Part shown: positions 1 to 63,343 of the stretch, piece by piece
Numbering within the stretch: the first letter of the stretch is position 1
Layout of the letters: every line of letters starts with the position of its first letter
Assembly (NCBI GenBank): GCA_003024175.1
Contig: MDYQ01000039.1
Location: forward strand, 62,001 to 126,000
From: Planoprotostelium fungivorum
Lineage: Eukaryota > Evosea > Variosea > Cavosteliida > Cavosteliaceae
Length of the DNA stretch: 64,000 nt
Direction of reading: 5' to 3'
Position numbers and translations under genes: made by a program
The notes under the pieces: model-generated
Databases searched by the model: none
Told to the model about the DNA's origin: nothing
What the model saw: the letters and a program-made list of their open reading frames with translations, nothing else

Positions 1-3000
1 CGAGGATGGAACTCAGGTGAGAGGAGATGAAGGAGATCAGGCGCTGAACGAGGCAGACGATCTCGTTGAGGAGAGAAGGGTTTGTCGAGATCGTCAAGGA
101 GGACTTGAAGAAGGAGAAGTTTGAGTTCAAGAAGATCCAAGATGTGGATCGATATTGGACGGTGTTGGAATACAACTCGTTGCAACAGGTGGGGAAGTAT
201 TATTCCATCATGATCACCGCATCATGATCACGATCACGTTCATCACCATCTCATGATCGCGATCACGATCACCCCATCTCACGATCGCGATCACGTTCAT
301 CACCATCACCACAACTCTGACTTACACCCCTTCAGGAAGAGAGAGACCCGTCCGATCCATCTCATCAGACGGCATCCATCCTATCGAATCACAAGCACTG
401 GATGACTTCCACCGCGATATCGAGAGCCCAACGTATCTCTCTCAGCATGTCCACGCTGGGTCAAGAGTCACTGGAGATCGATCAAGCAGAGACTATCGGT
501 AACGCCACACACTTGTCAGCCAGTCAGGTGAAATTTCCGGGAAATTTCCGGGAAATGTCTGAGAAAAGTGTAGGTGCTACTGTGGCATAAGAAGAAGAGG
601 GCGGCGAAGGAGAAGTACAAGGTGGAGTTTCAATCGATTGAAACGGTAGTGATGGAGTTGTAGTTGAAGATGGCTTCGATGGAAAATTCGGAGAAAACTC
701 AGGCCGAAACCACACTCCCGGAAAGTGGTGCGAAGAAGAAGAGAAAGATCGGTGAGATCTCCGCGATATTTCCGCGAGATTTCTCACCTCGACAGGTGAC
801 GCACCAGTTCACGTGACGGCATACAAGAAGAAGAAGACGACAGAAGCCAGCGAATCTGTACCCGAGGAGGCATCAGAGAAGGAGGAAGAGTCAGCCGGTG
901 AGACATCTCTTATATCCTTTTACTTTTATTTCTCATCGACTTCGAAGAACCTATCGTGGACGCATCTACAACGAGCCAGACCACCACCTTCCCCCACCGT
1001 TCGTCCAAGTGGAAGCCACACGAGGATCGCATCATCCTCGCGGCTTACGCGCAGAATTCAGAAGCCTTCGCGAACAAGTCCGGTGGAGGCATCGCCAGGG
1101 CCCAATGGAAGGAAGCTGCTGCTAAAGTTGGAAGAACAGAGACCATGTGTAATCACAGATTCCACATTCTAATGAAGAAGAAGGCCGTACAGAGATCTGT
1201 CAGGGTGAGTCGTCTTCATCTTTTTATTCCATTTTATTGATCTACAAATTGGGATTCGTCCCGAAATTTCGTGTCTGATTCGATGCGTCTGATTTGAATG
1301 ATTCGCATCGTCGATGTCATTCGATCGATGTACATCAATCGATCTGATGAACGATGCAGGTGGCCATCGCCGATCGAAAACTGAGACAGAGCGAGGGACA
1401 GAGACTGTGGGCACCCCTACCTGACAACATCGATGATTTGGAGAAGCAGTATCAAGTGTCTCCTCTCATCCCGGAGAAGAACAAACACATCAACGAAGTC
1501 GCCCTCGCCGATTGCATCAAGGTTCGCATCGACATCCATCGTCACATCGACGATGTCACTCACACATCGACAGAGCATCATGATGATCCCCGAGGCCGAA
1601 TACGATGCAGAAGAAGCCGTGCGTTTCATTCGAAACTATTCACAAGTTGACAAGGACATCTGCTTCCAACAGATGAGAGACGCTGGTCTGATCACGAAGA
1701 CAAAATCATCCAGCGAGTCTACCAGAGGATTTCAGCTGGCCACGAGGTGATGGCTGGTTGTAGATGGAAATCTCACGGAAAATTAGGTTCTATCAGAACT
1801 TGCACATACAGATGTTGAATAAGGCTATTTTTGAAGTTTCTGAAGAGTTCCTGGAAGGATTGAAGGAAGTGAAGGAGGGTGAGGAGGTATTTTTAGAAGG
1901 TCCCAAAATGGCCAGCGCGGGCTCGGTGAACAAGGTGAGCATCTACAACGAGCTAATTTAAAGGTTTAATTTGGGACAGCTGCTGACGTGGAGGAACGAT
2001 GGGAAGATCCAATTGGTACCCGACATGACGGTGGAGAGGTGAGGGGTGTAGACGAACATTAAAATGAAATAAAATAGGGAGGGAGCACCGAAGATGTCGA
2101 GGAGGAGGAGATGGGGTGACAGTATCCTCTCTGATGCCTCTCAGACTCCAGAGTGGGGTGATGGTTTTATTCTATTTTAATCTTTTTCGCCTTTATCTCT
2201 TCCACACGCTTTCAATCTCATTGAAAGGAAGACAGATGTGAAGGTGGTCAGGCAGAGTGGTACCACACTGGATCAATTGAAGCAAGCGAAGAAGCCAATC
2301 GTGAAGGAGATCGACTACGAGAGCTCGTTCAGTGCAGAAGAGAAACAGAAGATGACCGATAGGGTGAGAAATAAATGTTTCATTCACATTTTAATGTCGA
2401 TTTCCAGGTAATGAAAGATATCGATGAGAGTGGTGAAAGCGGTGTCACACAAGCCCAATTGAAGGTAATACCTCTATTCAGACCCATCCACGACAGACGA
2501 CATCGCGAACGTGATTCCTCGCGTGATATTGAGACGAAAACAGGAATACTTGGGCAGCGACAAAGAGATCAGAGCCATCGTAACACCTCTCTTGACAGAG
2601 GACAAGGTCATCTGCACACTCGACCACGAAGACCGAAGATATTTTTCCCGCCAAAATGCCTCGAAATACCTCTTCTCGTCCAGCCACACGTCCTCTCCCT
2701 TCGTCTTCTATCCATGGATGAAGATCCAAGGCAAGATCGATAAGAGCTACCTCGTCATGTTAAAGAAGAGGGTGCTCACGCTCATCGCGAGCACGCCCGG
2801 TATAGAATACGTGAGCCGACGGACGACCCGGCGGGAACTGAAGAAAGACAGAGACAAATGGTCAACCTTCTAAAGAGTTCCCTGTTCGCTTCAACTGTGA
2901 AGGAGATACTGAGGATGTTGCTGCAAGAGGACCTCATCGTAGAGAGGAAGGTGTGTTCGTTCATCACCGACGAGCACGTCTAAAGATATCAGGTGAGGAA

Positions 3001-3151
3001 GATGAGTACCACCTTGTTCGATAGCACCATCGGAGAAGAAGAGACGTGCTATCTACCTACCGCAGACGTCTTTAGAATCTACCCAGACATCTCGACAGAG
3101 CTCAAAACACGAACATCCAGCGTGAACGATCCCACGCCCATGGAAATATAG
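1..3151 (+). CDS. TFIIIC largest subunit-like protein (partial, 5' end outside window)
   Basis: This is a multi-exon plus-strand gene whose 5' part lies outside the window. A Myb/SANT-like segment at about 1011-1205 reads WKPHEDRIILAAYAQ, then QWKEAAAKVGRTETMCNHRF. It is followed by a charged region (LWAPLPDNIDDLEKQYQ) and winged-helix-like C-terminal stretches (EIRAIVTPLLTEDKVICTL at about 2560-2620; FASTVKEILRMLLQED at about 2887-2935). The same order, with a helical 'trained on tRNA-gene' Myb-like block upstream of C-terminal winged helices, is known from the B-block-binding TFIIIC subunit (GTF3C1/Tfc3), which recruits RNA polymerase III to tRNA genes. The final intron is 2951-2992 and the last exon ends PTPMEI at a TAG (3149-3151). 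Assignment rests on remembered family features; another Myb-like nuclear protein is possible. Confidence 0.5.
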
Positions 3152-3411: not shown

Positions 3412-5843
3412 AATGTCAGCCATCCTACAGCAACCAACGGTGTCCAGTTTTGTCGCTCAACATGCGGTGCCACCGAGGGAAGCAATGCAACAATTGTTTC
3501 CTCAAAGAGATGTGAAGATTCCAAAAGCCACAGACAGAGACATGATGGCTGCTCCGCCAAAGACGCCCGAAGAGTTGGAGGCCGCATATCGAGCTGGTGA
3601 TTTCGGAGGTCGTAGACCTTCCGATCTCTTTCTCACGGTGAGAAGAGTCGAGATGATGAGTCGTATAGACACTCAACGTGATGGATCAGATCTTCAGTGA
3701 CGTGTTGAGGACCATAGATGAAGATAAGAACCCACTCGTTGGATTAGTCAGTCGTCCTCTATTGGGCACCACTGGTTCTGTACGCGCTTCCGTCGTCGCA
3801 CCCACACGAGGTGATTATCACTTACACCCCACCATCTCAATAATCACAGACATCGTCCATTATTACATGGCGCACATGATGGAAGCCAAAGACGAGATTG
3901 TCTTCTCGTCTGGTTTCTGGGATAACAAGAGTTGCAACGCACAGATCTTCAGAATGGCACTCGTCGCCACCAGTCGAAAGCTAGCTCAAGAACGTCCAGA
4001 TCACAGACTCTCTGTCAAGATTCTATGGAGTAATGGTAATGGATCACCTCATCGTATCGACACATTTCCATATCGAAGAAACTGATCGAGAGACAGGCTA
4101 CCCAGCCAACGGCTCTCTCCACACTCAGAGCCACGTGACGACAGAGAAGATTCCCACCATGTTACCCGTAGAGGACACCCCCAACATGGACTACGAGATC
4201 GTGGTGCGTTCCCTCATTCGATCGAACGCCAAACGCTAAAGAGGACAGAACTATCACAAACCGGTGTTGGGAGTTTTGCACATCAAGTATCTCATCATCG
4301 ATCGAGAGAAGTTATTTCTGTCTTCGAACAACATCCACGACAAGGCAAACATGGAGTTGTCCGTCCACATGGAAGGGGTGAGCCTCCATCTCATCATGTC
4401 CATAGAAAATAAAATACAATAAAATTCACACGCCTCCGAAAAATTCTACAACGATATAGACATCCGATCATGTCATCACGATCGTCTCATCTTTGACTCA
4501 TGTTAGGGCGTAGTCAATTCGTTCTACGATACGTTCCTCATCAACTGGAAGATCGAAATGCAAACTCCATTTCCAAGAATGAACACTCCATCTACAACGG
4601 ATTTCACGCACGATTACTCACAGAAGCCCATCCTCGGAAGAATTGCGGAAGATTCCACGCCCATCAATTTAAAGCTACCCGTTCCAATGCCTTACACCAA
4701 CTGGAAGGGTGAAGAGGTGAAATCGGGACTTTCAACTTGAAATTTGGGACTGACCCAGACAGGTGAGAGAGCCAGAGGCCAGGAACCCTTACATCCACCC
4801 GGAAGAATATCTTCCGCTGTTCGTGCACTCTCGATTGGCTCAGCAGCCAGTGCCGATGGTGGTTGTAAATCGCGCACCAGAAGGCAGACCAGGCCACCTC
4901 CACACTCACAATCCACAAGGTGAAGTATCCCACGCTCCATCATGTCGATCATCTCTTCATCATCGCATCACGTCTGATCATCATCGCATCATCGTGATCA
5001 CCTCACACTCACCTTCATCATCACCTTCATCATCTGTGATCACCTTGACCCATCACGATCATCATCATCACCTTGACTGATCTTCATCACAGACGCCGCC
5101 TGGAAATCTGCTTATCGCAACGCGAAGCGGTCCATCTTCGTTCAGACACCTGATTTCAATGCAAAACCCGCCATGAAAGGTGTCATACAGGCCTGCCGCC
5201 GCGGTGTACAGGTGATCATCATCTACAACGCCGTTGTAGATCGTGGAAATTGACGAAAACGATCAGGTCACACTGTGGATATGCTGGGGCTACAACGCGA
5301 TGAAGGAAAATATTCCGTTCCAGGGAGGGGACAATGTGAAAGCAATGAGGAAATTGTACAGACAATTGACGGAATTTGGAGACGGTAGTGAGAAGAATCT
5401 TCACTTGTACTGGCACGTTTCGAAGGGAATGAGAGAGCCACACGAAGAGACAGAGCATTGTCACAGTGAGTCGAGTCTCTCCATCATCATCATCACCTTC
5501 ACCTCATCGTCATCCACATCACACCATCATCATCATCTTTGACATCACACGATGTTGTCATCACACCGACATCATCGCTCGATCGTCATCATCTGATCCC
5601 GTTGCAGTCAAATTCATGAGCGTCGATGATGAGATCGCCATCGTCGGCAGCGGCAACATGGACGTCCAGAGTTGGTTCCACTCTGCAGAAGTCAATGTTA
5701 TGGTGGACTCCCCACAGTGCGTCGCTGAATGGTTGCACGCCTTTAGAACAAACCAAGACACCGAAGTGTTTGGAAAGATAGATCCCTCATTAGACGTGTC
5801 ACCCGATCAGCAGATCATCAACATGTTGAAGTTGAAGAAATAA
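3412..5843 (+). CDS. phospholipase D-family protein with two HKD motifs
   Basis: The protein has two HxKxxxxD catalytic motifs: HIKYLIIDREKLFLSSNNIHD near 4275-4340 and HIKFMSVDDEIAIVGSGNMD near 5604-5665. Each is followed by the Asn/Ser-rich strand typical of PLD enzymes. This layout matches a family of roughly 800-residue PLD-like proteins of fungi and protists that presumably act as phosphodiesterases or transphosphatidylases; the substrate cannot be told. The start MSAILQQPTVSSFVAQ is the first Met before conserved sequence. Introns include 3638-3689 and 4204-4248, each restoring the frame into conserved sequence. The intron at about 4960-5090 is full of CATCAC-type repeats, and the next intron ends inside the iterated motif CGTTGTAG. 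The stop is TAA at 5841-5843. Both catalytic motifs look intact. Confidence 0.75.
5221..5241. repeat. two facing half-sites of the iterated motif at a splice acceptor
   Basis: ATCTACAACG and CGTTGTAGAT face each other with one extra base between them. The intron of the PLD-family gene ends at the TAG inside the right half-site, before IVEIDENDQ. Confidence 0.85.
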
Positions 5844-6284: not shown

Positions 6285-6290
6285 GCACAC

Positions 6291-11464: not shown

Positions 11465-12672
11465 ATGCATCATCATCACAGACACCACGGACACAAGAAA
11501 CATAGGAATACGAAGGAAGGACAGAGATGGAGCGATGAGACGATAGAGCAGTTGCAGATCCCTCGTGCAGCGTGGATGCGACAGATGTCTGACATCTATC
11601 CTCCATGCAAAGAGTTCAGCGTCAATTTTTTCGAAGCTTTAAAGGTAATTCCTCTCGGGTGAGTCGGTGTGATCGATAATGATCCGCGCGACGTCGCATC
11701 ACACTGAGACGTAAGAGGTGGAGGATGTGGAAACATACGAAAGCCGTCAAGGCAGAAGACAGAGCTCCCATCATGGATCCTTTCACATCGAAGAAACCGT
11801 CACCTTTGATGGGGGTACCTATCGGAGGCATTGGATCTGGAGGCATCACTCGGTACGTTCAATCATCGAACGATCTCCCACATCGTCTCATTTCCAATCA
11901 ATCTCATTGACGACATCCACAGAGGATGGAGGGGAGACTTCATCCGTTGGTCCATCACGAACACGGGTATGACCAGCATGAACAATGTCGAGGCCGATCA
12001 GTTCAGCATCCGGATCAAGAGGAACGATCACATCGTAACGAGTGTTCTCCACGCCGGACCACCTCAACCTTCTGCAGAGTCTCCCAACAGGGCACCAGAA
12101 AATTCGTGGAATTTTTCCGGCATCAGCGGTAGAGACAGTTTCTACCACGCCATGTTTCCCAGAGCTTGGTCCATCTACAACGAGCCAGATCCAAATCTAA
12201 CTATAACGTGTAAACAACTGTCTCCCGTCATCGCAAACAACTACCAAGGTAAATCTCGACGAAATTTCACGATTAAACGTTAAATCCACAGAATCAAGCT
12301 ATCCCGTAGGGGTCTTCGTGTACCAACTTCACAATCACGGTAAAGAGGAGGTCAATGTGGACATCATGTGGACGATGCAGAACGGTCATTCAAATTCCGC
12401 CGCGTCAGAAGGGTCCCATTCAAATGAGCCGTTCGATTTGGAGGGCGAGCGGAAGATTCGCGGAATTAAGATGACGCACCGAGGCCGTAGGAACTACAGG
12501 GTAGACGGTGCGAAGAAAAAGTGAGAAGTGATGATGAGGATGAGTGTCATGACGATCTGACAGCGTGGCCGACACGGTACAGTATGGAATGGGAGTGATA
12601 GAGAGTGAAGATGTGAGAGTGACTCGTAGGACTACCTTTCATCCCATGTCCGTTCACAGCTGCAAGTGAGTG

Positions 12673-12703
<31 letters not shown>

Positions 12704-14948
12704 GCTGTTCGCTGAATGAAAGAAGGGAGCTCTGGAACGAATTCCAACAGACTGGAAATCTCAAGGAAAATCCACGATCGATCCGCGAGCAGCACTCGGG
12801 TGGGCGCCACGTTTAAAATTCGAATTCGGATTGAAACTTCATTTAGCCGTTGGAGGAGCTTTAACAGCTTCAGTGAGCATACCACCGGGACAGATGAGAG
12901 AGGTGATCGTCACCGATCATGATGATGATGATGATGATGATGATCAGATCGTCTTTTCTTTCGGTTGGGATTCACCTTACGTCCTCTTTGGTTCTTCAAA
13001 ACACGCCAGAAGGTCGTTGTCATGGTTTCATTTCATTAAAGCCACGCAGGTACACAAAATTCTACGGACGAGAGGGTGATCACGTGACCGAGATCGTTCG
13101 TGATGCTTTGACTCACTACAACGACTGGGAGGCCCAAGTGAGATTTCCACGAGATTTCCACGAGATTTACGAGAGGAAGATCGATCAGTGGCAGTCCACT
13201 ATCTACAACGATCCAGATCTCCCACCAGATTACGTCGGAGCATTATTCAACGAACTATATTTCATTGTAGATGGAGGCACCGTGTGGACAGAAGAAGACG
13301 ATCGAGGTGATACCCTCTACTACCGTACGTACCGTGCGTACTCATCGTGAAATAGATGACGACATTGGAAAATTCGCTTATCTAGAAGGATTAGAGTATC
13401 TGATGTACAACACCTACGACGTACACTTTTACGCATCCTTCGCCCTCATCATGAATTGGCCGAAATTAGAGCTCTCACTACAACGAGACATCGCCACGGG
13501 TGGGTGTCGACGACAATGTCTACATTGACGATGTTACAGCGACGAGATCAGATTCAGATGAGAAATGGACTCTCTTGCACAGCGGAGAAGAAGCCATGAG
13601 AAAGAAGAAGGGAGCTGTTCCCCACGATATCGGTGAGAAAAAAAGGAAGTATCTGGGATTCGAAACCGAGTACAGGTACTCCTGGTGAAGCACCTTGGGT
13701 CAAAGTCAACTCGTACTGCATACAAGACGTGTCAAGATGGAAGGACTTACCCTCCAAGTTCATCCTGCAGGTGATTTTATTTCATTTTATTGTTCGTCTA
13801 CAACGCCGTCTGAATTAATAAAGGTGTACCGCGATTACGTGGCTACGGAGGACAAGCTATTTTTAGAGAATCTGCTTCCAGTGGTATTAGAGACATTCGA
13901 GTACCTACGACAATTCGACACAGACGGTGACGGAATGATCGAGAATGAAGGTGATTGGCATTGTCCCATCTACAACTGAAGCTTCAGGTTTCCCCGATCA
14001 GACCTACGACATCTGGTCGGCCAAGGGAATTTCAGCCTACAGCGGTGGTCTATATTTAGCCTGCCTGTCCGCCGTCATAGAGATGTGCAAGCTGGTACCC
14101 CTCCAAGAGGGAGACCTGCAGGCATCTAGACTGAGAGGATACGAAGAATTGTATGCTATGGCCAGAAACAGCTATCACGATAGTCTCTGGAACGGTACGT
14201 ACTACAATTACGACTCGTGTGGCCAGGCACACTCGGACAGCATCATGGCAGACATGCTGGCGGGACACTGGTACGCGAAGGTGAGATCGTGGAGAATCCG
14301 TGGGACAACCATGGAGCGTCTGTGGAGAATCTGCAAAATTTTTGACTCGGATAGATCTGCATGCTGTCGACTTACGTCAAGGAAGAAGAAGAGATGGTGA
14401 AGGGAATATTAGATGTGGTGTACGAAAACAACGTAGTGAAGGTGAAGCGTGAAGAGGGAGAGGAGAGTGACTCGGTTGCAGTTTGGAAAGAAGATGAAGG
14501 AGAAGGTGGGACACCACATCGGTGCTGTCAATGGAATGAGGCCTTCTGGTGTGGCAGATACTACCAGCATCCAATCTCAGGAGGTGAGATGTCAAGATGC
14601 GATCGCATCGCTCATGACTTGAACGACATCACATCACATCACATGCAATGAGATCACGTCACATCATATGAGATCACATGACATGAGATGACATCACGTC
14701 AAACCTGAAATTCTCAGGTGTGGACTGGGACAACTTACGCCCTAGCTAGCACCATGATCTTGGAAGGAAAGAAGGAGATGGCATTCGATACCGCCAGGGG
14801 CATCATCGATACGACGTACAATACGTTCGGTTACGCTTTCCAGACGCCCGAGGGATGGGACTCCCAGGGAAGATACAGAGCTTACGCTTATCAGAGGCCG
14901 CTGGCCATCTGGTCCATGCAATGGGCTTGGCATCAGATGAAGAAATAA
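11465..14948 (+). CDS. GBA2: non-lysosomal glucosylceramidase (bile acid beta-glucosidase)
   Basis: The protein matches the GBA2 family (GH116), which hydrolyses glucosylceramide to glucose and ceramide at the cytosolic face of membranes. N-terminal domain blocks are [24 protein letters not shown] and [19 protein letters not shown]. In the catalytic alpha/alpha barrel, the nucleophile Glu lies in [15 protein letters not shown] (about 13243-13290) and the acid/base Asp in [13 protein letters not shown] (about 13990-14025). The C-terminus ends [21 protein letters not shown]. The start gives an odd His-rich leader, [13 protein letters not shown]. Many introns of about 50 bp occur, some made of GAT or CATCA repeats (12675-12705, 12920-12945, 14620-14700). 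Iterated motif ATCTACAACG falls in two exons. Both catalytic residues are present, so the enzyme should be active. Confidence 0.92.
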
Positions 14949-15099: not shown

Positions 15100-18000
15100 T
15101 CACAGGATGACCATCAGGCACGCGACGGCGATCCATAAGACGGATACCACCGTGGAACATCCCTCACTGGACGGTGAACTGGTCACAACTGGCCCATCTC
15201 TCGTTCCACTGGTCGTGGGACCATCCACCGTCACGCTCGTCGTACCCTGCCCATCACTCTCCGACGTGGTACTGCTCGTGGAACTCGAGCCGCCATTCAC
15301 TCCGCTCGTCCCTACTTCTCTCGTGACGCTTGAAAAACTCATCGGCTGGAAGGAGAAGGTGTAGTCCGTTGTAGAGTCTGACGATACCGTGAAATTCTTC
15401 GCAGTGTGGTCGACCTTGATGGCCTCTACGATCGTCTTCAAAGCAGCTCCGCTGATGGCTTGACCTCTCACGGTAGAGATGAGAGTGTAGAAAGTGACGT
15501 TGTCTCCTCCCTTCAGGAGGGTCCACGCGAAAAAGTTGGTCACGGGGAAACCAAAATCGTCGAATTCAGTTCTGAAGCCGTAATTGGCCGTGGACAAGTC
15601 CGAATGCATGGAGAAGAGAGTCTGCGTCGTCTCGTTGAGAGGCTGCTTGCGGTCGTTGTAGGTGATCGTGCGTGGCGCCTGGAGTGCCCAAGTGGGTCCG
15701 GAGAGGGTGACGTTGTCCCACAGCCTCCAGTTGATTCCAGCTTTGACTGGGTAAGCCAAGTTGGAAGATGCAGTGTAAGTGTCCTTGACGACCATGACGC
15801 CGTTGTCCGTCATGATGACTTGTCTGTCGATCGTCAGAACTACAACGAGACAGTTCGAGTCGAAATTTCACCTTCGAACGGACAATCCTTCGTGTTGAAA
15901 CCTCCCGTAAAGTACGTCTGCCCCACTAGCGTGGGAACCGAGCGTAAGTACGTTCGAGTACGTGATATTAGTGGGATACGTCTGTGTCTCGTTCAAGATG
16001 GTACCCGTGGGTCTGTCAAACTGGTACTGCATGACATCCATGTACTTCTGTGTGGCTGCCAAGAAATCAACATTCAAATCGGGGAAGGCAAGGGGGTAAG
16101 GATAGTTGATGTCGTCCTTCTGGGCGAACGGTCCGTTGCATTGATTCGCGTAGGATGGTCGATTACGTCTGCGTACGTCAGTCGCGTGATATCGTGCGTA
16201 AGGAAGCGTAATGGAAGGGGTGAGCGTACCTGTGTACCATGTAGGCACCCATGAACATGCTGTTGTCCAGGCACAGTCTCTGATCGGTGTTGGCATGGTG
16301 ACCGGCACCCGACAGTCCCAACACCGCCCAAGATGACAGATCGTGGGAACTCGTTCTCAGAATGATCTTGTCCGGTACCAAAACGGTATTAGCATTCGTC
16401 GCTCCACGATTGATGAGCATCCCCTTGTAGTACATGGTCGATTACGTCTGCGTACGTCAGTCGCGTGATATCGTGCGTAAGGAAGCGTAATGGAAGGGGT
16501 GAGCGTACCTGTGTACCATGTAGGCACCCATGAACATGCTGTTGTCCAGGCACAGTCTCTGATCGGTATTGGCATGGTGACCGGCACCCGACAGTCCCAA
16601 TACCGCCCAAGATGACAGATCGTGGGAACTCGTTCTCAGAATGATCTTGTCAGGTACCAGAACGGTATTGGCATTCGTCGCTCCACGATTGATGAGCATC
16701 CCCTTGTAGTACATGGTCGATACTCTCAAGAAGGACTGAGTCGGTTGCGTTGTAGATGCAGGTCCCTCCAGATTCAACAGATCGTACCGTTGGATGTTGG
16801 CGTGAGTGAGATCGTCAAAGACGGCCGTGTGGTTCGGCATCACATTGTAGTAGAAGCGGTCGATCTTGCGTGAAGCCCACAGGTAAGTCACGTTGCCAGT
16901 CATCATGTAGGCCATACGAAGCGGCCACACTGCCTGACCGGAAGTAACGTAAACGTACTGATAAGCGGAAGAGCCTGCCGCCTTGTGGTAGCTGGGTGTA
17001 TCACCCGTTCCTGACATCTACAACGCGTCAGAATGTCGATGAGATCATGACACGTCGGCGATCGTGTCGTCATCACCTGAAGCACCATGCGATCCATGAT
17101 GCGTTTGATGTCCGGGGAATCAGACATGTAAGCGTTGGTGTCGGTCTGCGTTCCTCGGTTGAGGCGATTGAGAACGACGGCGAGGTGGAACATCATGCCG
17201 GTGTTGAAGGTTCCGTAATGAGGTGTGTTGTCGATCTCGTAGGCTCCTGTCTTTCCGACCATGGAGTTCCAGAAGAGGAAGAAGGCGGAAGTGGCATTGG
17301 GGAAATACTTGGCGGCAGCCTGCTGATAGTCACGTCTATTCATTAACAAGATGATGTATCATTCCAAGATCGATGGATGTATGATTTGATGATCGGCTCA
17401 CAACTTCTCCGTATATGCCGATGGTAGTTCCAGCGATGAGTGTTTGAGCGATCTCCTTGTTGTAGCCGGTGGACACCCAGACACGGACACCTCTGGCCGC
17501 TGCTGTTGCCTCTGAATAGGCCAGAGTGAAGTTCTCGTAGGCATTCTGGACGGTTCCTGCAGGGGCTTGTAATGGTGTGTATTGCAGGTAAGCGTTGGCC
17601 TATGGGGTGGTGAGCATGATACCGCGTGTCATATCGTATCACCCGATTGAGAAGATAGACGCTGTAGGCAATGCTTCCTCTCTCCTGAGACTCGTTGACG
17701 TCCGGATTGTTGCCCGCCTGATCCAGTGAGATTGTGACACGGATGTTCATATCACCTTGATCCATCGATCGTAAGAAAGACAGCGCTGGATCACATCGTA
17801 TTTCACTTGAGAGATAGCATTGTCCATGTGTTGGGTGAGGTTGTAGGTGAGAGATGCCAGAAGAAGAGTCGATGCTCCTCTTCTCCACGTTGAGTTCAAT
17901 GCTGCCGCAGCATCACCCAGATATGCATTGGGTGATACATAGACACCATACTGTGAGTTGACCTTGTTGAGTCTAGACATGAGAGTCCAAGAGTCCAGAC

Positions 18001-18163: not shown

Positions 18164-18515
18164 CTTCTGTGTTCTCCGAGAATGATGGTCGCTCGAGCAT
18201 TCTCAGCCTGCCAATACAAAATCATACAGCGACGCCGCACGGCCAAGAAGTAGCATCTTCCATCTCAAAATCGAAAAAAATGGCGGGCACAATATCATAC
18301 TGCGATCTTTTGAACTCCATACACAGAACACGCGGGCCGACAGCATCCTCTGTCCTTATGATCAGAAGATTCACATGTAAGACAGTTCGGACCAGAGATG
18401 ATTGCGATAGAGAGAACTTCTCATCACCGAGAAATGAGAATTCATCTCGGCGAGTTCATCCTCATCGTCATCCATCACATCATCACATCATCACATGGAC
18501 ACGTCCTCTTTATCG

Positions 18516-38811: not shown

Positions 38812-38915
38812 ATAAATCGCGATAATGCGATTTTATTGTTTATCGTTGTAGATGATATCGATAAACCGAACAAAGAATCGGAATCTCAACAGACTAAGTC
38901 CATCACCATCAGAAG

Positions 38916-43600: not shown

Positions 43601-46600
43601 GTGAATTGCTCTCTCTTTCATTGCTCTGAAGAAACACAGACGGGTGCTCCTTCTTCTCAGGGAGCGAAATTACCTCCAACGATAGAAGCACTGGAGCCGG
43701 TCATCAAGCACCTCAACCGAATCTTCTTCGAAGAGGGTGACGAATTTTCCGCGAATTTTCATTGAAATTTCCAGGAACTGCCCTGTCGAAATTGGCGGGA
43801 ACGGCGGAAGGATCGGACGAGCTATTTCAGGCAGCTGCGAGGAGATTCCAAGAAGCTGTGTCGATCGACCCTGGTGACTACAGGTCCCTCTACAACTGGG
43901 GTCTATCTCTACACAATCACGCGCTCAAACTTTTGGCGGGAAAAAATACAGACAAGGTGCGTACAGTAGAGGTTTCATTTGATTGAAACGACGACAGAGG
44001 GAAGTCAAGAGGCTATTGGACGAATCAGAGACGAGGTTCAGGGAGGCTCAATCGATTGAAACGGCAGATTACAGGCTATTTTTAGCCTCGGCGAATCTGT
44101 ACGCCGACCGAGGCCGGCAAGCTTCCGGCCCCGCCGCCATCGAGGATCTAAAAAAAGCCGCAATATTTTTCCGGTAACATCTATCCATCTACAACGTCCC
44201 TCATTTTTCCAGGAATTCTTACGTCCTCTCTTCGATGAGAGACTACGATGTCCTCTACAACTGGGCGAACGCCCTCATGGATCTTTCCCGCCTTCCCTCC
44301 TCCCTCGATTCCAGGAAATTATTATCCGTAGGCTGCTCTCTCTACCACACTGCGTCTCAGCTGCAAGTCGTGCAGGTCACGAAGAATTGGGCCGTCTGCC
44401 TGGGGAGGTTGGCTCAGATCGGGATCTCCGATCATTCTCCGCGGAATTCCTCGGAGGATGATATGGTATGATGTCATCACACGTCATCGTCTGACGCGTT
44501 GTAGACGGAAGGATTGGACGAATTGACTGCAGTGAGTTGGAGGCACTATTACGGGATGAGTTATCAAGAAGCTTTCTCTTTCTGCTACGTAAAGTACGCG
44601 GAGGCAGCACAGCTCCAGCCGAACGATCACGTGACTCAGAAGATTCCGAGAAAAACATCTGAAAATTTCCAGGAAATCCATCTCAATTGGGCGAATACTC
44701 TGTACAAGCAATTCATATTGGAACAGAAGGTGAAATCTCGTAGCAATTCAGATTCTGACGTTCAGAAGAAGAGTGGAAAGGTCGATTACGAGGAGTTATT
44801 CCACTCGAGCGAGAGATACTTCAGATCTCTCATACTATGCCCTGGACACATCCCTTCCATCAACAATTGGCTGCAGACTCTAACTTGCCTGGTGTCAGCC
44901 TGCGATGGTCAGCATCACATCATCACATCGAATCATCACCTTGTCATTGATGATGTGTATATCATCAATCATGTGGACGATGTGATGTGCTGATGTGATG
45001 TGCAGAGAGTGATAGTCCGAACAGTGAGAAGCAGAATACGAACACAGTGGTGACCATGTCGAAAGTCTTAACCGAGTTGGATAAATTCATATCCATGGTA
45101 GAAGCCATCAGCAGCAAAGGTGAACGATCATTCTCATTCGTTCATCATTCGGTAGATGTATACCTTCTCCCCTGCTCTCTCATCACTTCACATGTCTCTT
45201 TCAGAATATCTCATCGCATCATCCATCCTACACATCAACACATACACATCAACACATACACATCAACACATACATATCAACACATACACATCAACACATA
45301 CACATCAACATCGATGCATTCGATCCATCCTATTACAAACGAAGAGAATGACAGAAGAAAAACAGACGAAAAAGCTTGGGACAGCATCGGCAAATTGAAA
45401 GACATCGTCAGGGGATCAGAGAAGAAGTCCAGGGCACTCTTCTCCTTCTTAATGGACGCAGATTCCAGCTCCATGAATGCATCGGAAGGTATGGAGGCAC
45501 AGCTGAGAGGTGCCAGTTACCTCACCTCTCTCGTCACAAAGGTGGACGCCTGGCTGACCCAGCAGGTGTGATGTTTCATTTATTCTATTTTATTGTTCTG
45601 ATTTGGGACAGAGGCCCAAATTGGAGGGACTGTTGAAGAGTGATCAGTATCAATTGATGGAGAAGATGCTGGAGAAGAAGGGTGTCTCCATGGTGATGAC
45701 GTCATCATTCGTCATCATCCTTCGTACTGAATAGTTCTCAGCACAGAGTGAGGAAGAAGAAGACACAGCAGATCTTCGTCATGAAATCTCTTCGATTGGA
45801 TCTCATCAGAGAAGCCAACCAAGATGACGTATGTCTCGTTGTAGTTTGACATACCCATAATCATGATATGCATATGTCTCGTTGTAGTTTGATGTACTCA
45901 TTGTATTTCGACAGAATGCCGCCTGCGAGAAGATGATGAGCCAGAGCGTGTCGCATTTTTCAGTCGTACCCCTGGCGTCTTGCTTCTGCGACGAACACAG
46001 AATGCATCTCGTCTACAACTACATGCCCGGCGGTCAAATTCTACCGAGATTATCCGCCTGCAGAGACATGAAAGGTTTCATCTACAACGTTGTAGATGGA
46101 CTGACCCTTCACAGAATTTTCGATGGAAGATTCCGTCACCTTCTTCGCTGCAGAGGTGAGTGAGTTGCGTTTCAATTGATTGAGACGGTACAGATATACG
46201 AGGGAATCTGTGCTTACCACAGGGACGGAAGAATCTACGGAAAATTATCACCCAAGAAGGTTCTGCTGAACGCAGGGGGACACGCCGTGTTGTTACAGAC
46301 ACTTACGTCTTTAAATTCGGGTGAGATTTCCGCGAGGTTTCGCGTTAACCAGAAAAAGGAGAAGAAGATTCTGACGCCCTGTCATACTACGCACCCGAGG
46401 TACTGAGTGGAGAGGTGAAGTTTAGATGATGATCATCGTGATGATGATGAGTAGACGGCTACGGAGGCTGCTGACTATTGGTCGTTTGGTGCTCTTCTAC
46501 TTCACTTTTTATCTGGAAAAGTGAGTCTAATTGTTCATCTGATGATTTATTTCATTTTATTCTGTTGGATGTTTTATCACTCAAAAAATTTATTTCACAT

Positions 46601-47196
46601 AAATCTGATGAGATGACAGCCTCCATTTCCGGGTAGTACGATGTATGATGTTGTAGATTCCATATTGAGTTGTAAATACGATGTACCCAATGGTCTCTCT
46701 TCAAAGTGTTCCGATGTCATCAGAGGAGTGAGAACATCATGCATCATCCATCATCATCCATCATCGTCCGTCTTCATGTTTTCGGTCATTCCACGATCTA
46801 TGATCACGATCATCATCATCCGTCTGATCGTGATCATCCATCGCCATGCATTCGATCATCTCCACGCTCGATCGACGATCACCACGACGATCCCATCCGA
46901 TCACCCCCGATCATGATCGCAGACTGACTTGACATCAGCTGCTGGACATTGATATCCCCGCCCGAACCAAATTCTGGCGAAATCTCCGCGAAAACACGTT
47001 CTTCCGGGGAATTCCCTGGGAAGATCTGTCCCTGGCCGTCCCACCGCTCCTCCCCTCTTCGAATTTCGGAGATTTAGGTTTCACCGTTGTAGATGGAAAC
47101 GTCCACGGTGAATATATGGGAATGACTGTAGCACAAGTCCACCAGCCCAGCTCGAGCTGGTCGGCTGCTACAAACAAGAGGACGAGAGAAGAATAA
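40648..47196 (+). CDS. CLU domain - TPR - AGC-type pseudokinase protein
   Basis: The first half matches the CLU (clustered mitochondria) domain: NLYGGDEGTMKTAGHELRAV, LHFPLHTIIDYLGWR, SLVYGSCDAG, then RFYLLDLARLFPP and GINLKMMGRIRNHIG, with the downstream CLU/eIF3-like block ILWFFNRVFGT. TPR-like helices follow (RRFQEAVSIDPGDYRSLYNW; RFREAQSIETADYRLFLASA). From about 45760 an AGC-kinase fold appears: IFVMKSLRLDLIREAN (Lys kept), MHLVYNYMPGGQI, IYGKLSPKKVLLNAGGHAVL (RDLKPEN lost), LQT instead of DFG, YYAPEVL, ADYWSFGALLL and the C-tail RGIPWEDL. Join between CLU and TPR parts runs through one intron at about 43401-43534; a separate gene ending at 43501 and another starting at 43553 remains possible. 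The start is uncertain (40648 or 40718). Confidence 0.7.
42590..42755 (+). repeat. CATCAAGATCGTCA minisatellite in intron
   Basis: About nine CATCA-based units, many of them the 15-mer CATCAAGATCGTCAC, fill an intron of the CLU gene. The stretch is open in several frames but encodes only His/Gln/Ser/Ile repeats and does not match the CLU family. Confidence 0.85.
45228..45312 (+). repeat. ACACATCAACACATAC repeat in intron
   Basis: Six copies of a 15-bp ACATCAACACATACA-type unit occur in an intron of the CLU-TPR-pseudokinase gene. Confidence 0.85.
46079..46098. repeat. full 20-bp palindrome of the iterated motif
   Basis: CATCTACAACGTTGTAGATG is its own reverse complement and joins two half-sites of the iterated 10-mer. 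It lies inside a 40-bp intron: with 46075-46114 removed the flanking exons read RDMKEFSMEDSVTFFAAE, which fits a kinase C-lobe helix. Confidence 0.9.
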
Positions 47197-55317: not shown

Positions 55318-55558
55318 CGTATGTATTGACTCGATATCATCTATAGAAGGTTAGCTCTGTTCACATCACCTCTCCCCGGTGGTCTTGGACTTTTGAATTA
55401 TGAGTTTCATTGTAGATCGATGAATCAAGAAGGCCGAAATTTTGAGAATGCTCTTGTTGCGATCAGGTCGATCTATCGTACAATCAAAGTCACTCGTTCT
55501 TCCTGTCTTCCGACCAGTTGAAATCACTTCATTTCAGAAGCGCTTAACATCAAACAGC
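55318..55558. promoter_or_regulatory. short divergent intergenic region
   Basis: This 240-bp gap separates the divergent blh and ABC-ATPase genes and must hold both promoters. No specific element is recognised. Confidence 0.35.
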
Positions 55559-58512: not shown

Positions 58513-60948
58513 ATGATGAACCCGAATGCTATGAGGCCGGGTGAAAACGGGAGGAACAGAGGATCAGTCGAGGCTTTCCCATCAGAAGAGGTCCGCATGC
58601 AGATGCTGGCGGCACCTCTCAACACCGGGCTCAATCACCAGCAATTGGTCAACTCCATGCAGATCCCTCAGAACGGGATACAACAGCAACAACAGCAGCA
58701 GCAACAGCAGCAGACACAGGGAGAACTCTCGATGTGGAACAACTTTATGTCTGATGTGATCTTTCCCAGCTCTCTCACAGACCCGAGGTGAGAGAGACAC
58801 GAACATCATGCAGTGATTCATAAATGGCCACTGACACAACTGTAGATTCAATCTCGAATGTCCAGAAGATGAAGTTTGGATTCCGTCTGATCAGACGATA
58901 CATTGGGGAAGGCGTCCACACTATGTCTATCCACAGATGAAGATGAATCGAAGAGAAGATCTCAGTTCCATCCCAAGAGGCAGTCGCCTGGTGGCCAAGC
59001 TGTGTTTCTGTGATTGGACGTGGGATGAAGACAGAGGCATGACTGTAGAAGACACAACGAGGAAATCACAACGACCAGGTGAACATAATCACGTCCACAA
59101 TGCAACACATGACTGAATACGCGAGCAGATCCCAGTTGTACGTCTTGTTTCGAAGAAGACAAGACGATGGTTCCATTCGAGAGAGGTGTCGCCACCTTCA
59201 GACATCTCCGCATATCGAAGAACATCAAACTGAAGAAGACCGAGATGTTCACCGTCAATGTTTTGGGATTCGAGATCGGTGATTCTTTGCAACATGGATC
59301 ACGATACGTATCATCCGCACATCACCATCTCGATCGACATCTGAACGAGATCAGGTTACCACAATCTATTCAACAAGATCCCATTCAAATCTTTAGACAT
59401 CTACCTCTCGAAGCCAGTCAAAATTCACATCGTCGCGCACAAGGGCAGCGTCAAGCTCATGCAAAAACATGGCATCTTGCCCATGACGCTATCACCCACA
59501 TCATCATCTCGAGATGGAGAGATCTTGTCTTCTCCCATCTCATCTGAACCTGAACCTGACACACCACCCTCTCCAGGCCAACTCAACGTGTCCGCTCAGA
59601 AGGTGAGATGAGAAAAAAAAGAGTCGGGCGACGGGAATCGAAGCGTGGTCACGGGCTGACGATCGGCAGAGATATCTCTCTTCGCCCGCCCCAGAAGAAA
59701 ATTTCGGACAACAGAACAAGAGAGTGAAGAATCAGAGCGAGAGCCAGATGAGAGACGAGATCTTGGAAGAGATGACTCTCATGCAAGGTCAGCTGGACGT
59801 TCTGAAGCGTAAAGTCGAAAACCTGCTCACGTACCAATCCGTCCCCAGGGTGAGCCCTTCATTCCACGAGTCATTTAAAATGATAAAAATTGACATTTCT
59901 TCTCCAGGTCCCCCCCCGTACGATTCGAATCACTTGCACCATTGACAGAGTCAAACCCTCTTCTTTCATCTTCAACGCCTTCCGCACGAAGAATCTAGAA
60001 GTCGGTGTCAATCTCATCCGAACCTTCAACTTCAACGTGAACGACAGAAATTCGAACGGCTACACGATACTGCACGTCGCGGCGAAGCACGCTTTTCCGG
60101 AGGGAGTGCAGTGGTGCATCGCCAACGGTGTGTCGATCAATGCGTACACGAATTTGAGGTGTACGGCACTGCATCTGGCCTACCTGAGAAACGAGAAATC
60201 TGTCAGGAAGATGTTGAAAGAGGCCAAGGCCGATACGGAGGTGAGATTTCGGTGGAATTTCAGTGAAATTTCGCGGCAATTTGCACGGGCGTGACGGTAA
60301 AAAAAGGTGGTGAACGTGTGGGGATTGAAACCGAGAGATTATCGCAACAATCGAAGGGCTATTTTGAGGCCCATCCCGGAAGCTGCACACAGCGTCGAAG
60401 TCGAATTGGAAGGCTACGACATCACCATGGAGATCAGAATTTGGTTTGCCGCGCGAATCAATTGGTTGGAGGTGAGAAGCGTTGTAGATGGAGTCCTGAG
60501 GCAATTCAGGTCTTGAAGATATACATCGAACAGTTGTCGTGTGACGTGGATGTGAAAAATCCGAACGGGCAGACGCCGCTCATGTGTGCCTGCGAACACA
60601 GACAAGAAGAGGTGATCATCACATCATCCATCACATCCATCATCATCGGAGTACATCCACATGCTGACGTCCACACTTCAGGTCGTGAGGTACCTCCTCA
60701 GTATGGGTGCAGACGTCAACGCGAGAGACATACACGATTCCACACCTCTCCACTACGCATACATGAGCTTCGATCAGAACCGAGCCATCCTCTCCATGTT
60801 ACAGACCGCAGGTGAAGTACTGTACTCTCCTCTCTCTCAGCGTTCAACAGGTGCGGACCCTACCGTGAAGAACATTTTCAATCGAACACCGCAATGGTAC
60901 AGAAATAAGACGTTAGACAACCACTGGAATCCAATCTGGAACATCTAA
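58513..60948 (+). CDS. polyQ and ankyrin-repeat protein, possible transcription regulator
   Basis: The start is MMNPNAMRPGENGRNRG. A glutamine run of about ten residues lies at 58680-58712, followed by a beta-rich domain (PEDEVWIPSDQTIHWGRRPH; GSRLVAKLCFCDWTWDEDRG; FERGVATFRHLRISKNIKLK; TEMFTVNVLGFEIGD). A coiled-coil helix (RDEILEEMTLMQGQLDVLKR) precedes ankyrin repeats: NGYTILHVAAKHAFPEGVQW, LRCTALHLAYLRNEKSVRK, NGQTPLMCACEHRQEEV, DSTPLHYAYMSFDQNR. PolyQ plus an Ig-like beta domain plus ankyrins recalls Rel/NF-kB- or CudA-type regulators, but I cannot prove the beta domain's family. The stop is TAA at 60946-60948. Confidence 0.6.
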
Positions 60949-61023
60949 AGAAGAGGAGGAGAGAGAAAACGTGACGCGTGAGACGTGAAATGAAGAGTGT
61001 AGCACAGTTGATGTCTCTCGTCT

Positions 61024-63343
61024 TTACTTGTGAGGTTGGTGCGGTGCCTGTGTGGGATCGTAGGCCACTAGATTCCAATTCTTCAGCTTCATCCTTCCCT
61101 CTGGATTTTTCAATCGATCGATGACATACTCTTGTATGCCTGCGTGTCGTTCAGCTCAGAGGATGACTTTTCCGTGTTCGCAAGAGTGTAATCTCACCGC
61201 AGTTGGGTGTCACTTCTAACCCGAGCACACCAGCCTCGTCTAGATACTGCAATCTACCTCTGAACAGTTTGTACGGAACCTGACACAGTGTCAATCGTAA
61301 CAGAATGAGCGTGAAGAGTAGAGGTTGAGATGAAAGAATGGGTTTCACTTGGTGCGTGACGACTAAGACGGATCTACCGGCGTAATCTCTGCAGATCTTC
61401 TCCAAGAAGAGATGGACTCGGATTTCTACTGCGGGATAGTTTTCTCCACCGGGGAACTTGTACCAGTACCTTCCGTCCCTCTTTCGAATGGAGACTTCTT
61501 CCGGAAATTTCTCCTGTTTCTCTGTTCAGTCTCATGTGTACAAAGACGTGATGATGATCACAGTGATGATGATAATGATGATGTGATTATGAAAATGTTG
61601 ATGATGATCGTGATGATAACGATGATGATAATGTTGATCAATGGTGATCTGATGTGATGTGATGACGAACCTTGACACTCTTATCATCTAAACCGTGTAA
61701 TCTTCCAAATTCCTTCTCTCTCAACCAATTATCCGTGTACTGTTTCAGATTGTAAGGTAACTCCTTCCTGATCAGCTCGGCTGCACACGTTCATTCTACG
61801 TCTCAAGACATGATCACCTGTGTCCATCGCCCTCTGATAAGGTGAAGAGAAGCAGATGTCAAACTTCTCCCCTCCCGCCAGATATTTACCCGTCTCCGTC
61901 GCTTGCCATCTACAACGATTTAATTTTCCAAATTCCATTTTATCTCTCTCACCTCCCCAGCGGCGTCAGCTTGATGTCCGCATCTACTACCTCTCAGTGA
62001 TCACGTGACCATCACATCGTCACCTCTGACGCTGGACAGTGCGTCTATATTTGGATCCATCAGATCCAAGGCTGCGTTCTGTTCGGACTGTCCGTGACGG
62101 ATGATGACCAATCTTTTGGGCCACTTCGGCCTCACATTCGAATAGAACCTGCTGTCCAGAGAGGGCATCGAACTGCTGCGAGCCTGTCCCAATTTATATG
62201 AATAAAATGTGGATCATCGATTTTAAATCGCTCCCACCATGTGATTGTCTGTGTGGGCGCAGAATGGTTGAGCTAAGACTTGTTGGTTGTTCAATATGAT
62301 CGATGCGTTGCGGTTCAATTTGTGTCTGCTCTCGTCAACTTCATGATGACCTGACACTCACCTCTTCAACTTCTCTTCCTCGTCGATTGTGGGCCTCTTT
62401 ACGATGGACATGGTCTGATACACGTCAAGAACCATCCTCTATATCTTCCTCACCTTTCCAGACTCCGTCAGCCTCCTCTTTCGGTTGGTGATGACGGGTG
62501 CATCACGGTTCACGTTTGCCTTCTGAGGCGATTCAGAGTATTCGATGGGTGCAGGGGGTGTAGAAGGTCTCTTGGCTGGTGTGGCCGTGCTCGATCTGGC
62601 GACATGAGATGAGATGAGAATGATTGAAAACGATTGAAATGGAAGGCGAGGGACTCACTTGATCTGTTGCTTCTTTCTCTCCAGTTCATCTCGATAATCG
62701 TCATCGAGATGATCGATGGATGAGAGAGCGAGGGTGAAGGAGAGGATGGGTTTGTCACGTTCGTCTGTTTCTAACTCTTCGATGCGAGAGAGGAGAGGTA
62801 ATGATTCGTTCTCGACCTGTTCGATGGTGATTCACGATTTGAGATGGAGGAATGAAGATCACCTTTCCGATGATCATGTATTTGCCCTGCAGACTGTTGC
62901 AAGCATCGAGAGAAACGATTATGTCGCCTCCCCTTGCAAGAGCGACGACACCTCTTCCGTCGAAAGACAATCCAGAATTGGGTGGAAAATCGAAGAGGGT
63001 CACCTCTTCTGTGTGAATGTTAATGATGCATTTTCGGTTGGACGCTATTCGGTATCACCTCGGTTGTTCGTTCCAAATGCAAAGAGAAAGTTCTTGATGA
63101 CACGATGAACAGACACATTGGCGTATTGTCCAGATAGAACGAGGGTGAAGAACTTCTCTAAGACGTAACACACCTGAATCATATCATTTCAAAGATCTAT
63201 GAAATCCCTACCTCTGGAGTGTTACTCCTCGTTATCATATCCAACTGCGTCGTATGTGAGATAATCACGTGATGGAATCATAATGCCTCACCCTCAATGT
63301 TCCGATTGTGGTAGTGAAGGTTAGTGTGCTGGGGTGCTCCATC
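61024..63343 (-). CDS. cyclophilin (CWC27-like) joined to histidine phosphatase, fusion or two adjacent genes
   Basis: N-terminal part (63343 to about 62500): a diverged cyclophilin, TLTFTTTIGTLR, VLEKFFTLVLSGQYANVSVH, GRGVVALARGGDIIVSLDAC and GKYMIIGKV, then an acidic coiled tail (DDDYRDELERKKQQIKS) and Pro/Ser-rich sequence. This fits CWC27-like spliceosomal cyclophilins; the active-site FHRV..FMIQGGD is changed to VHRVIKNFLFAFG, so isomerase activity is doubtful. C-terminal part (about 62420 to 61024): histidine-phosphatase/phosphoglycerate-mutase fold with RLVIIRHGQSEQN, FSSPYQRAMDT, FGRLHGL, PGGENY and VLVVTHQ; both catalytic His residues are kept. All introns between the halves preserve the frame, but without splicing at about 62447-62484 the cyclophilin would end in VRKI, and MSIVKRPTID could start a second gene. 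Confidence 0.6.

Follow-up and report, generated by a model that had tools for sequence, protein, structure and literature searches.

Short DNA words repeated exactly and at high copy number have been described in bacteria. Among them, the DNA uptake sequences (USS/DUS) of Pasteurellaceae and Neisseria are exact and iterated, and force tripeptides on proteins. The highly iterated palindromes (HIPs) of cyanobacteria, as defined in PMC4390886, occur at 1,000-2,000 per Mb; for HIP1, Elhai proposes a methylation-dependent repair model (PMC4390886). Introners were found in 5% of the species searched (PMC9860276), and the periodic An/Tn clusters (PATCs) of C. elegans are carried by introns and can protect from silencing (PMC7725773). 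The word described here, the 10-mer ATCTACAACG, was analysed in the genome of the fungus-eating amoeba Planoprotostelium fungivorum (Protostelium aurantium; Amoebozoa; 36.9 Mb) and in one 64-kb stretch of it (the window).

Exact copies of the 10-mer were counted at 7,984 genome-wide (4,011 forward, 3,973 reverse), compared with 62 (35 + 27) for the reversed word as control. The window contains 37, whereas 100 dinucleotide shuffles gave a mean of 0.13 and none reached 37; when the window was modelled as a third-order Markov chain, the word had the highest z score of the 10-mers (37 observed, 0.41 expected). The earlier note had put the chance expectation at about 0.12 and had proposed the assembly count and the Markov test; the two orientations and the HIP-like iteration that it described were borne out. 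Its 35 exact copies are all real, with three coordinates (19864, 22438 and 47084) one position off, and the copies at 21913 and 46088 had been overlooked. The flanks of the 37 window copies were compared and showed no relation beyond a few bases; the word is therefore not a repeat family. That its thousands of copies are fragments of one ancient interspersed repeat, MITE or coding repeat, the case in which shared flanks had been predicted, has next to no probability, as the flanks are unrelated, decayed inner-core copies are few and five coding frames carry the word. One-mismatch copies numbered 155 in 259 kb, compared with 192 exact ones, and the first or last letter was altered in 102 of the 155; the "many one-off variants" noted earlier are thus for the most part changes of the outermost letters, and few affect the inner core.

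The site is longer than 10 bp and consists of TCCATCTACAACG followed by a mirror half or by NNGCCA. The perfect 18-bp palindrome ATCTACAACGTTGTAGAT was found at 287 places genome-wide (control, 0) and the NNGCCA form TCTACAACNNGCCA at 1,948 (control, 14). Only 574 of the 7,984 half-sites lie within an exact palindrome; the palindrome described in the earlier note is real, but its halves usually stand singly or with an NNGCCA partner. Where GTTGTAGAT was exact, the left half had no mismatch in 60 cases, one in 8, two in 3, three in 5 and at least four in 185 (palindromes counted on both strands), so that the mirror half is nearly all-or-nothing. Dyad symmetry and strand independence were both observed, as in the DNA-binding site of a dimeric factor.

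On balance, the word is probably the strong half of a putative double-stranded recognition site of ~18-22 bp, which lies in the bodies of a subset of genes and is kept there by selection. The site would comprise the core TCTACAAC, a G, and one of two alternative second parts: NNGCCA, or the mirror half GTTGTAGA, which completes the perfect palindrome. Selection would maintain such sites in the transcribed bodies of these genes, most densely in short introns. A putative nuclear protein, probably a homodimer or two-part binder because the site has two-fold symmetry and its second half is interchangeable, would bind along the gene and might mark or control its chromatin or transcription. The sites within one gene would act jointly, which would explain the many copies per gene and the turnover of single positions.

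Introns contained 164 exact cores, and 45 one-mismatch copies at core positions 2-7 (47.5 expected), a scarcity of near-misses that counts in favour of the binding site. It also fits the main rival. Near-misses at background level beside so many intact cores look as if they had been converted, as under a molecular drive of the HIP1 or uptake-sequence type, in which repair, methylation-dependent mismatch or gene conversion would turn near-matches into the exact word with no benefit to the gene, selection merely removing copies harmful to proteins or splicing. Intron and exon differences that preserve length, and altered protein sequence, also fit such a drive. We nevertheless consider it unlikely: intergenic density is as low as exonic, though weaker constraint is expected between genes, and one gene differs from its neighbours, so that a drive would need transcription coupling and gene selectivity. 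In the anchored context CA-core-G (127 exact copies), moreover, 24 one-mismatch copies persist (~4 expected), with 14 at core positions 2-7 (~3 expected); their persistence also counts against a binding site.

Gene models were obtained with a purpose-built gene finder. Of 26 introns checked against a deposited protein, 22 agreed; 20 of these 26 stretches had been chosen for containing listed copies. Over 309 kb, the 10-mer occurred at 2.1 per kb in introns, 0.31 in CDS and 0.31 between genes (129, 59 and 18 copies, total 206, at setting pint -11; 139, 55 and 12 at the alternative setting -9); in a less biased 114 kb the densities were 1.03, 0.30 and 0.32 (23, 21 and 7 of 51). The window copies fall in introns, exons and gaps, as noted earlier (18, 14 and 5 of 37 by the gene finder's model; Table 1), but they do not run evenly "throughout the window": introns are densest and only part of the genes carry the word. 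CDS copies were sense in 52 cases and antisense in 28, near the 3:2 allowed by one stop-containing antisense frame; intron copies were oriented 66 and 97, an excess close to the 35 copies that serve as 3' splice sites. A promoter element appears unlikely, as sites are sparse between genes and no 5' bias was found among 187 gene-body sites. A classical regulatory site would be expected at least as densely between genes as in introns; the lower density observed speaks against a binding site.

Short intergenic spaces might have led several ordinary transcription-factor sites to shift into introns, and no special mechanism would then be needed. The iterated word, TTTCCCGCCAAA (which we take to be E2F-like), TGACGTCA (presumably CRE-like) and GAAATTTC are all enriched; genes rich in the word also tend to contain more GAAATTTC (Spearman 0.50) and TTCCCGCC (0.35; n=132 for both), and TGACGTCA and GAAATTTC likewise prefer introns. 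With intergenic density below intronic, dense coding copies and a rigid core, we hold this account to be highly improbable.

The core was absent from 56 of 132 genes (24 expected) and from 26 of 52 less biased genes (13.6 expected). Counts in the two halves of the same gene were correlated (rho 0.48, p 1e-4, n=60), and those of neighbouring genes were not significantly so (rho 0.16, p 0.10, n=106). A replication or modification signal acting simply across the whole genome is disfavoured by this gene-level specificity and by the lower intergenic density. In the window alone, the excess of zero-core genes was smaller (13 of 32; 7.4 expected) and site pairs were 1.41-fold in excess at 5-8 kb, beyond most gene lengths; both observations run against a binding site. 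No functional theme was recognised by eye among 24 motif-rich and 41 motif-poor proteins. Motif density showed no relation to the codon adaptation of the genes (rho 0.08, p 0.39) and was weakly tied to C-ending codons (rho 0.21, p 0.02), CDS length (rho 0.25, p 0.007) and intron share (rho 0.27, p 0.002; n=121 throughout); part of the gene effect may therefore be structural.

In coding copies, VVD was spelt GTTGTAGAY in 21 of 33 cases (0.7 expected), and the word spelt LQR in 13 of 35 (0.5 expected) and STT in 29 of 82 (1.3 expected), with 0-1 for the reordered-codon controls of all three; xTC-TAC-AAC was used in 31 of 53 (12.1 expected). The peptides themselves were in excess (VVD, 33 vs 13-16.5; IYN, 24 vs 5), so that the sites cost protein change, as they would under a drive. 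In the GGT gene, neither of the two copies coincides with an alignment gap: among 120 homologues, every residue of VVD is the commonest in its own column, and SVYN aligns without gaps to SVHT; just upstream of SVYN are two residues absent from most homologues and present in two eukaryotic ones. Coding copies in the CLASP-like gene, which the gene finder splits in three (18519-21361, 21391-22612 and 22687-23705), likewise lack inserted residues. Where matched introns or residues differed in having the motif, no length had been added in nearly all cases examined, with XPF, which has four extra residues at its palindrome (possibly an indel), as a possible exception.

The core overlaps 165 of 1,050 introns. 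This number, together with the short palindromic cores, would suit introners, that is, short intron-making transposable elements with a common conserved core. Motif introns do not, however, differ from the others in median length (44 and 45 nt) or phase (p 0.11), and the copies share nothing beyond the site, without similarity over the intron length. As to terminal inverted repeats or target-site duplications, the palindrome was seen to lie inside the introns. Position-matched introns were compared in 14 overlapping paralogue pairs (36 comparisons, hence not independent): the motif was present in both introns in 4, in one in 6 and in none in 26. Of the introns with the motif 12 of 26 were unmatched, and of the others 77 of 135; unmatched introns thus showed no motif excess, and insertion at new positions was not seen in these paralogues. 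With the CLASP and GGT coding copies also free of inserted residues, introners are highly unlikely.

Intron preference would equally suit an RNA-level splicing or RNA-binding signal in the pre-mRNA, as would the 35 of 1,050 introns that end in GTTGTAG/A (slash, junction); in 17 of these, CTGAC precedes the ending by no more than three bases. We judge such a signal very unlikely. Both orientations are used in introns and exons alike, 885 of 1,050 introns are without the core, and the introns of motif-free genes are similar in predicted splice-site composition. The exon resumes with AT in 28 of the 35, compared with 171 of all 1,050 introns, so that a DNA word spans the intron-exon junction. Copies of the word thus coincide with 3' splice sites, with codons chosen among synonyms and with residues that have changed, and are mostly not inserted DNA.

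Table 1. Motif sites and motif-richest gene of the window (each row is one exact 10-mer unless stated otherwise).
Feature	Position	Strand
intron	964..973	+
intron	1941..1950	+
coding, STT frame	4590..4599	+
two facing copies, one base between, ATCTACAACG-C-CGTTGTAGAT, intron	5221..5241	.
coding, IYN frame	12173..12182	+
coding, IYN frame	13201..13210	+
coding, STT frame	16748..16757	-
3' splice site CTGACGCGTTGTAG/AT of minus-strand intron 17018-17076	17016..17025	+
within 41-nt intron 18898-18938, intron matches deposited protein	18916..18925	+
coding STT, TOG domain of CLASP-like gene	19389..19398	-
coding STT	19579..19588	-
coding VVD	19669..19678	+
coding VVD	19780..19789	+
within 39-nt intron 19846-19884, matches deposited protein	19865..19874	-
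3' end of predicted intron 20082-20123; deposited model's boundary differs	20080..20089	+
coding VVD	20861..20870	+
coding STT	20994..21003	-
coding by gene finder; 44-nt intron by hand reading and deposited protein	21420..21429	+
intron by gene finder; coding VVD by deposited protein	21665..21674	+
left half of palindrome TCTACAACGTTGTAGA, 40-nt intron 21890-21929	21913..21922	-
within 47-nt intron 22349-22395	22364..22373	-
coding LQR	22437..22446	-
3' splice site of intron 23007-23048	23005..23014	+
intron	25826..25835	+
intron	27208..27217	-
between gene models	28051..28060	-
near-palindrome ATCTACAACGTTGTAAAT, between gene models	28131..28140	+
coding IYN	28349..28358	+
intron	30513..30522	-
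between gene models	38844..38853	-
intron, context GTAACATCTATCC[ATCTACAACG]TCCCTCATTTTTCCAG	44187..44196	+
perfect 18-bp palindrome ATCTACAACGTTGTAGAT (46080+ / 46088-), between gene models	46080..46097	.
coding in gene model, VVD	47085..47094	-
intron	60480..60489	-
intron	61908..61917	+
CLASP-like (TOG-domain) gene, richest in motif within window; deposited within PROFUN_05996	18519..23705	-

More tentatively, and with some doubt, the sequence might hold a eukaryotic 'gene-body code': a nearly all-or-none mark of 18-22 bp in the introns, splice sites and codons of about half of the genes. A dimeric protein devoted to this mark would read it, or transcription-coupled repair or conversion would write it, and the mark would assign the genes that bear it to a state of chromatin or expression without involvement of their promoters. 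The word may belong to a small alphabet with TTTCCCGCCAAA, GAAATTTC and TGACGTCA in the amoeba. A eukaryotic counterpart of the bacterial words that is densest in introns, selective for genes and able to rewrite codons, residues and 3' splice sites would point either to a sequence drive in eukaryotes or to gene-body regulation of a new type. The organism grows in culture, which makes the predictions open to direct testing.

Like the USS/DUS, the amoeba word is exact, iterated and tripeptide-imposing, but it is near strand-symmetric, gene-selective and intron-preferring, and we know of no DNA uptake system in the amoeba. With HIP1 it shares a short word, palindromic symmetry, strong genome-wide over-representation (thousands of copies) and unrelated flanks; it differs in being eukaryotic, in its sequence (ATCTACAACG instead of the octamer GCGATCGC or a GC-rich alternative), in having a long site with one strong and one variable half, in its selectivity for genes and preference for introns, and in its lower density (the 7,984 exact copies in 36.9 Mb amount to ~217 per Mb, compared with 1,000-2,000 for HIPs). 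Introners likewise provide thousands of intron-associated copies in a protist, whereas the amoeba copies share the site only, showed no insertion signature and include exons. PATCs are also a DNA-level signal that resides in introns and favours particular genes; they are, however, periodic clusters of A/T runs with no defined word, and the amoeba word is not itself an A/T run and is found in exons too. Eukaryotic factor sites (general regulatory factor or dimeric TF) resemble it in their rigid core, dyad symmetry, half-site with variable partner and presence or absence between homologous introns, but the amoeba sites lie in gene bodies instead of promoters, and there are very many per gene.

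The earlier note's claim that a 10-mer is highly iterated in the window was borne out: 37 exact copies of ATCTACAACG/CGTTGTAGAT were counted, against a mean of 0.13 in shuffled sequences and 0.41 expected from a third-order Markov model. Throughout the genome assembly containing the window (G000; 36.86 Mb, 471 contigs) the exact word occurs 7,984 times, about once per 4.6 kb, against 62 times for the same letters read backwards. The palindrome of which the two orientations had been described as halves is likewise real, its 18-bp form being found at 287 places genome-wide (control, 0). The copies could have been fragments of one repeat family with shared flanks; the flanks of the 37 window copies proved unrelated, the left-hand ones having only about three bases in common and the right-hand ones no more than a weak resemblance.

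The form of the site was determined in a 309-kb sample consisting of the window and 25 fetched stretches, 20 of which were chosen for listed copies, so that 20 of the 26 stretches are motif-enriched by choice. The consensus reads T-C-C-A-TCTACAAC-G, then A/C, G/T, N, C/T, A. To the right of the core (the inner eight letters) one of two discrete partners can stand, the mirror half or NNGCCA. Among 347 cores the mirror half was exact in 72 (36 palindromes with two cores each; 1.1 in a control region 30-60 bp downstream of the cores) and carried one mismatch in nine (control region, 0.3); the GCCA partner was present in 43 (control region, 1.1), and the remaining 223 had neither. Genome-wide, TCTACAACNNGCCA was found 1,948 times (control, 14).

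Introns and genes were predicted with a home-made, HMM-style gene finder, at the stricter of two settings (pint -11); the other setting gives the same picture. Junctions agreed with the deposited protein PROFUN_05996 for 22 of the 26 introns tested, including eight of the ten flagged as motif-bearing. Introns are dense in this genome: the 309 kb yielded 1,050 predictions, of which 678 measure 30-49 nt; most introns start with GTGA, and 192 have CTGAC within the last 25 nt. Some coding assignments are wrong (one copy in the table is intronic, and the RCR reading frame consists in part of missed introns), and counts in coding sequence (CDS) are therefore upper estimates.

As the earlier note had it, introns, exons and gaps are all occupied: the 206 exact 10-mers in 309 kb fall into introns (129 in 62 kb; 2.1 per kb), CDS (59 in 189 kb; 0.31 per kb) and the DNA between genes (18 in 58 kb; 0.31 per kb). 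A less biased sample of 114 kb, comprising the window and five stretches unselected for motif content, gave 51 exact 10-mers, with 23 in introns, 21 in CDS and seven between genes (1.03, 0.30 and 0.32 per kb). The preference for introns is thus about three- to sevenfold, and exonic density is also far above chance. Cores were overlapped by 165 of the 1,050 introns; in 35 introns the motif itself forms the 3′ splice site (GTTGTAG|A), and the exon continues with AT in 28 of these, against 171 of all 1,050. Genome-wide, CTGACNCGTTGTAGAT occurs 356 times (control, 0). The CDS holds 52 sense and 28 antisense copies, close to the 3:2 ratio to be expected when one of the antisense frames is closed by a stop codon; introns hold 66 and 97, respectively, and the surplus about matches the splice-site copies. 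Orientation to the gene is thus nearly symmetric, which points to a signal in DNA; an RNA signal was rejected because both orientations occur. A search for spacing or nucleosome-like phasing of the sites gave nothing clear.

Copies have mostly not arisen by insertion. Motif-bearing and other introns have median lengths of 44 and 45 nt and do not differ in phase distribution (p 0.11). In 14 overlapping pairs of paralogues, 36 position-matched intron comparisons were made, with the motif in both introns in four, in one intron in six and in neither in 26; unmatched introns numbered 12 among the 26 with the motif and 77 among the 135 without it. The four shared cases comprise one at the same place and one at a different place (both in stretch L014), one at a different place and in opposite orientation (stretches L012/L021, residue 1323) and one in which a half-site faces a palindrome (L012/L021, residue 1292, matched within four residues only). 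In the GGT gene, compared with 120 homologues, the motif-coded V, V and D are the commonest residues in their columns (84, 98 and 120 of 120) and SVYN aligns to SVHT, motif residues being gap-free; immediately before SVYN, two residues are absent from 116-118 homologues and present in eukaryotic P0019 and P0133. Motif-coded STT in the CLASP TOG domain shows no inserted residue relative to human CLASP2. XPF has four extra residues at the palindrome-coded IYNVVD, possibly an indel. For a gene that carries no sites, an initial homologue search yielded a relative at 84%. Contigs C185 and C187 of the assembly share 3,000 identical bases, through either a duplicated contig or a very recent duplication; these are motif-free and so uninformative. 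The motif fails the tests made for introners, which were rejected on the strength of intron length and phase, the comparison of paralogues and the copies in coding sequence; an origin as a coding repeat was rejected because five frames are used.

The motif imposes a cost on codons. GTTGTAGAY encodes 21 of the 33 VVD (0.7 expected), CTACAACGN 13 of the 35 LQR (0.5 expected) and TCTACAACG 29 of the 82 STT (1.3 expected); reordering the same codons gave 0-1 cases for these three peptides. [IVLF]YN was written xTC-TAC-AAC in 31 of 53 cases (12.1 expected). The peptides themselves are in excess (VVD, 33 vs 13-16.5; LQR, 35 vs 13-16; IYN, 24 vs about 5; STT, 82 vs 24-47, partly due to Ser/Thr-rich stretches), and the motif has therefore altered residues as well as codons.

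Under neutral turnover, one-off remnants are expected to be about as numerous as intact copies (an uncomputed estimate). Introns contain 164 intact cores and 45 one-mismatch copies at core positions 2-7 (47.5 expected), with an excess at positions 1 and 8. In the context CA-core-G, 127 cores are intact and 24 carry one mismatch (about four expected), which falls at positions 2-7 in 14. Inner-core remnants are few, which means that the majority of intact copies are retained, or that near-misses are quickly restored or lost. The few decayed copies, together with the unrelated flanks, rule out a repeat family or MITE.

Motif density is a property of individual genes. It correlates within genes when each is divided in two (rho 0.48, p 1e-4, n=60), and a regional or contig effect was rejected, since the correlation between neighbouring genes was not significant (rho 0.16, p 0.10, n=106). 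Of the 132 gene models 600 bp or longer, 56 contain no core (24 expected); the corresponding figures are 26 of 52 in the less biased sample (13.6 expected) and 13 of 32 in the window alone (7.4 expected). In the whole sample the surplus of paired sites dwindles at 3-5 kb; within the window alone it is back at 1.41-fold at 5-8 kb. Expression level was rejected as the cause: density shows no relation to codon adaptation scored from tubulin (rho 0.08, n=121) and only a weak one to C-ending codons (0.21), as it does to CDS length (0.25) and intron share (0.27; n=121). Intron signals and lengths are alike in motif-rich and motif-poor genes, and no functional theme was seen by eye among 24 rich and 41 poor proteins.

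The most economical reading, which we favour with some reserve, is a double-stranded recognition site of a putative dimeric or two-part nuclear protein, which would bind in gene bodies at several sites per gene maintained by selection. That a HIP-like drive is responsible appears unlikely; it accounts for the rigid core and leaves unexplained both the gene selectivity and the low density between genes.

Other words are iterated as well. TTTCCCGCCAAA, which we take to resemble an E2F site, occurs 687 times genome-wide (reversed control, 1). Motif-rich genes are also richer in GAAATTTC and TTCCCGCC. In the 309-kb sample GAAATTTC (1.14 vs 0.16 per kb) and TGACGTCA (0.92 vs 0.06 per kb) are concentrated in introns relative to CDS, and in some introns they are fused with the 3′ splice site (TTTCAG, ATCAG), as is the main motif; TTCCCGCC is equally dense in CDS and introns (0.25 and 0.27 per kb).

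Several genes were noted in passing. The CLASP-like protein predicted in the window matches PROFUN_05996 of Planoprotostelium fungivorum at 97% over 99% of the query; the deposited protein seems to be a fusion of the CLASP-like gene with a separate downstream gene, which starts with the signal-peptide-like MRNLFLTLLLL. By eye, L012 and L021 encode motif-rich receptor-like proteins whose kinase parts carry the tyrosine-kinase-type HRDL(A/S)ARN, and stretch L033 an IQ-repeat protein with the motif in repeated units, in the VVD and RCR frames. Two adjacent paralogues in stretch L015, which share 34% identity across 277 aa and look rhomboid/TMEM115-like by eye, have four cores and none, respectively, and partly matching intron positions.

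Coordinates of individual features in the window and in stretch L015
Sequence	Position	Strand	Feature
Window	16460-23705	-	PROFUN_05996 (1,779 aa)
Window	18519-23705	-	CLASP-like gene (TOG domain)
Window	19481-19520		Intron of the CLASP-like gene, example of TTTCCCGCCAAA
Window	21420		Intronic motif copy
Window	54766-55350	-	Frame that looks, by eye alone, like a carotene dioxygenase of bacterial type (Brp/Blh)
L015	3141-6531		Adjacent paralogues

NCBI taxonomy places P. fungivorum in Amoebozoa, Variosea, Cavosteliida; according to an excerpt of PMC10639083 the record ought to bear the name Protostelium aurantium. In the two collections covered, prokaryote DNA (257 Gb) and viral contigs, the palindrome is rare: it was found in 15 stretches of the former and was absent in exact form from the latter. 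One stretch with an exact TCCATCTACAACGAGCCA also turned up. A foreign origin was rejected within this scope. No paper naming the motif was found among the 40 listed of 592 matches in the open-access literature. Like HIP1, which the excerpted text of PMC4390886 ties to methyltransferases and a repair model, the motif is an iterated, palindrome-derived word. Like PATCs, as portrayed in part of PMC7725773, it is a gene-specific DNA signal carried by introns; unlike PATCs as portrayed there, it is a defined word.
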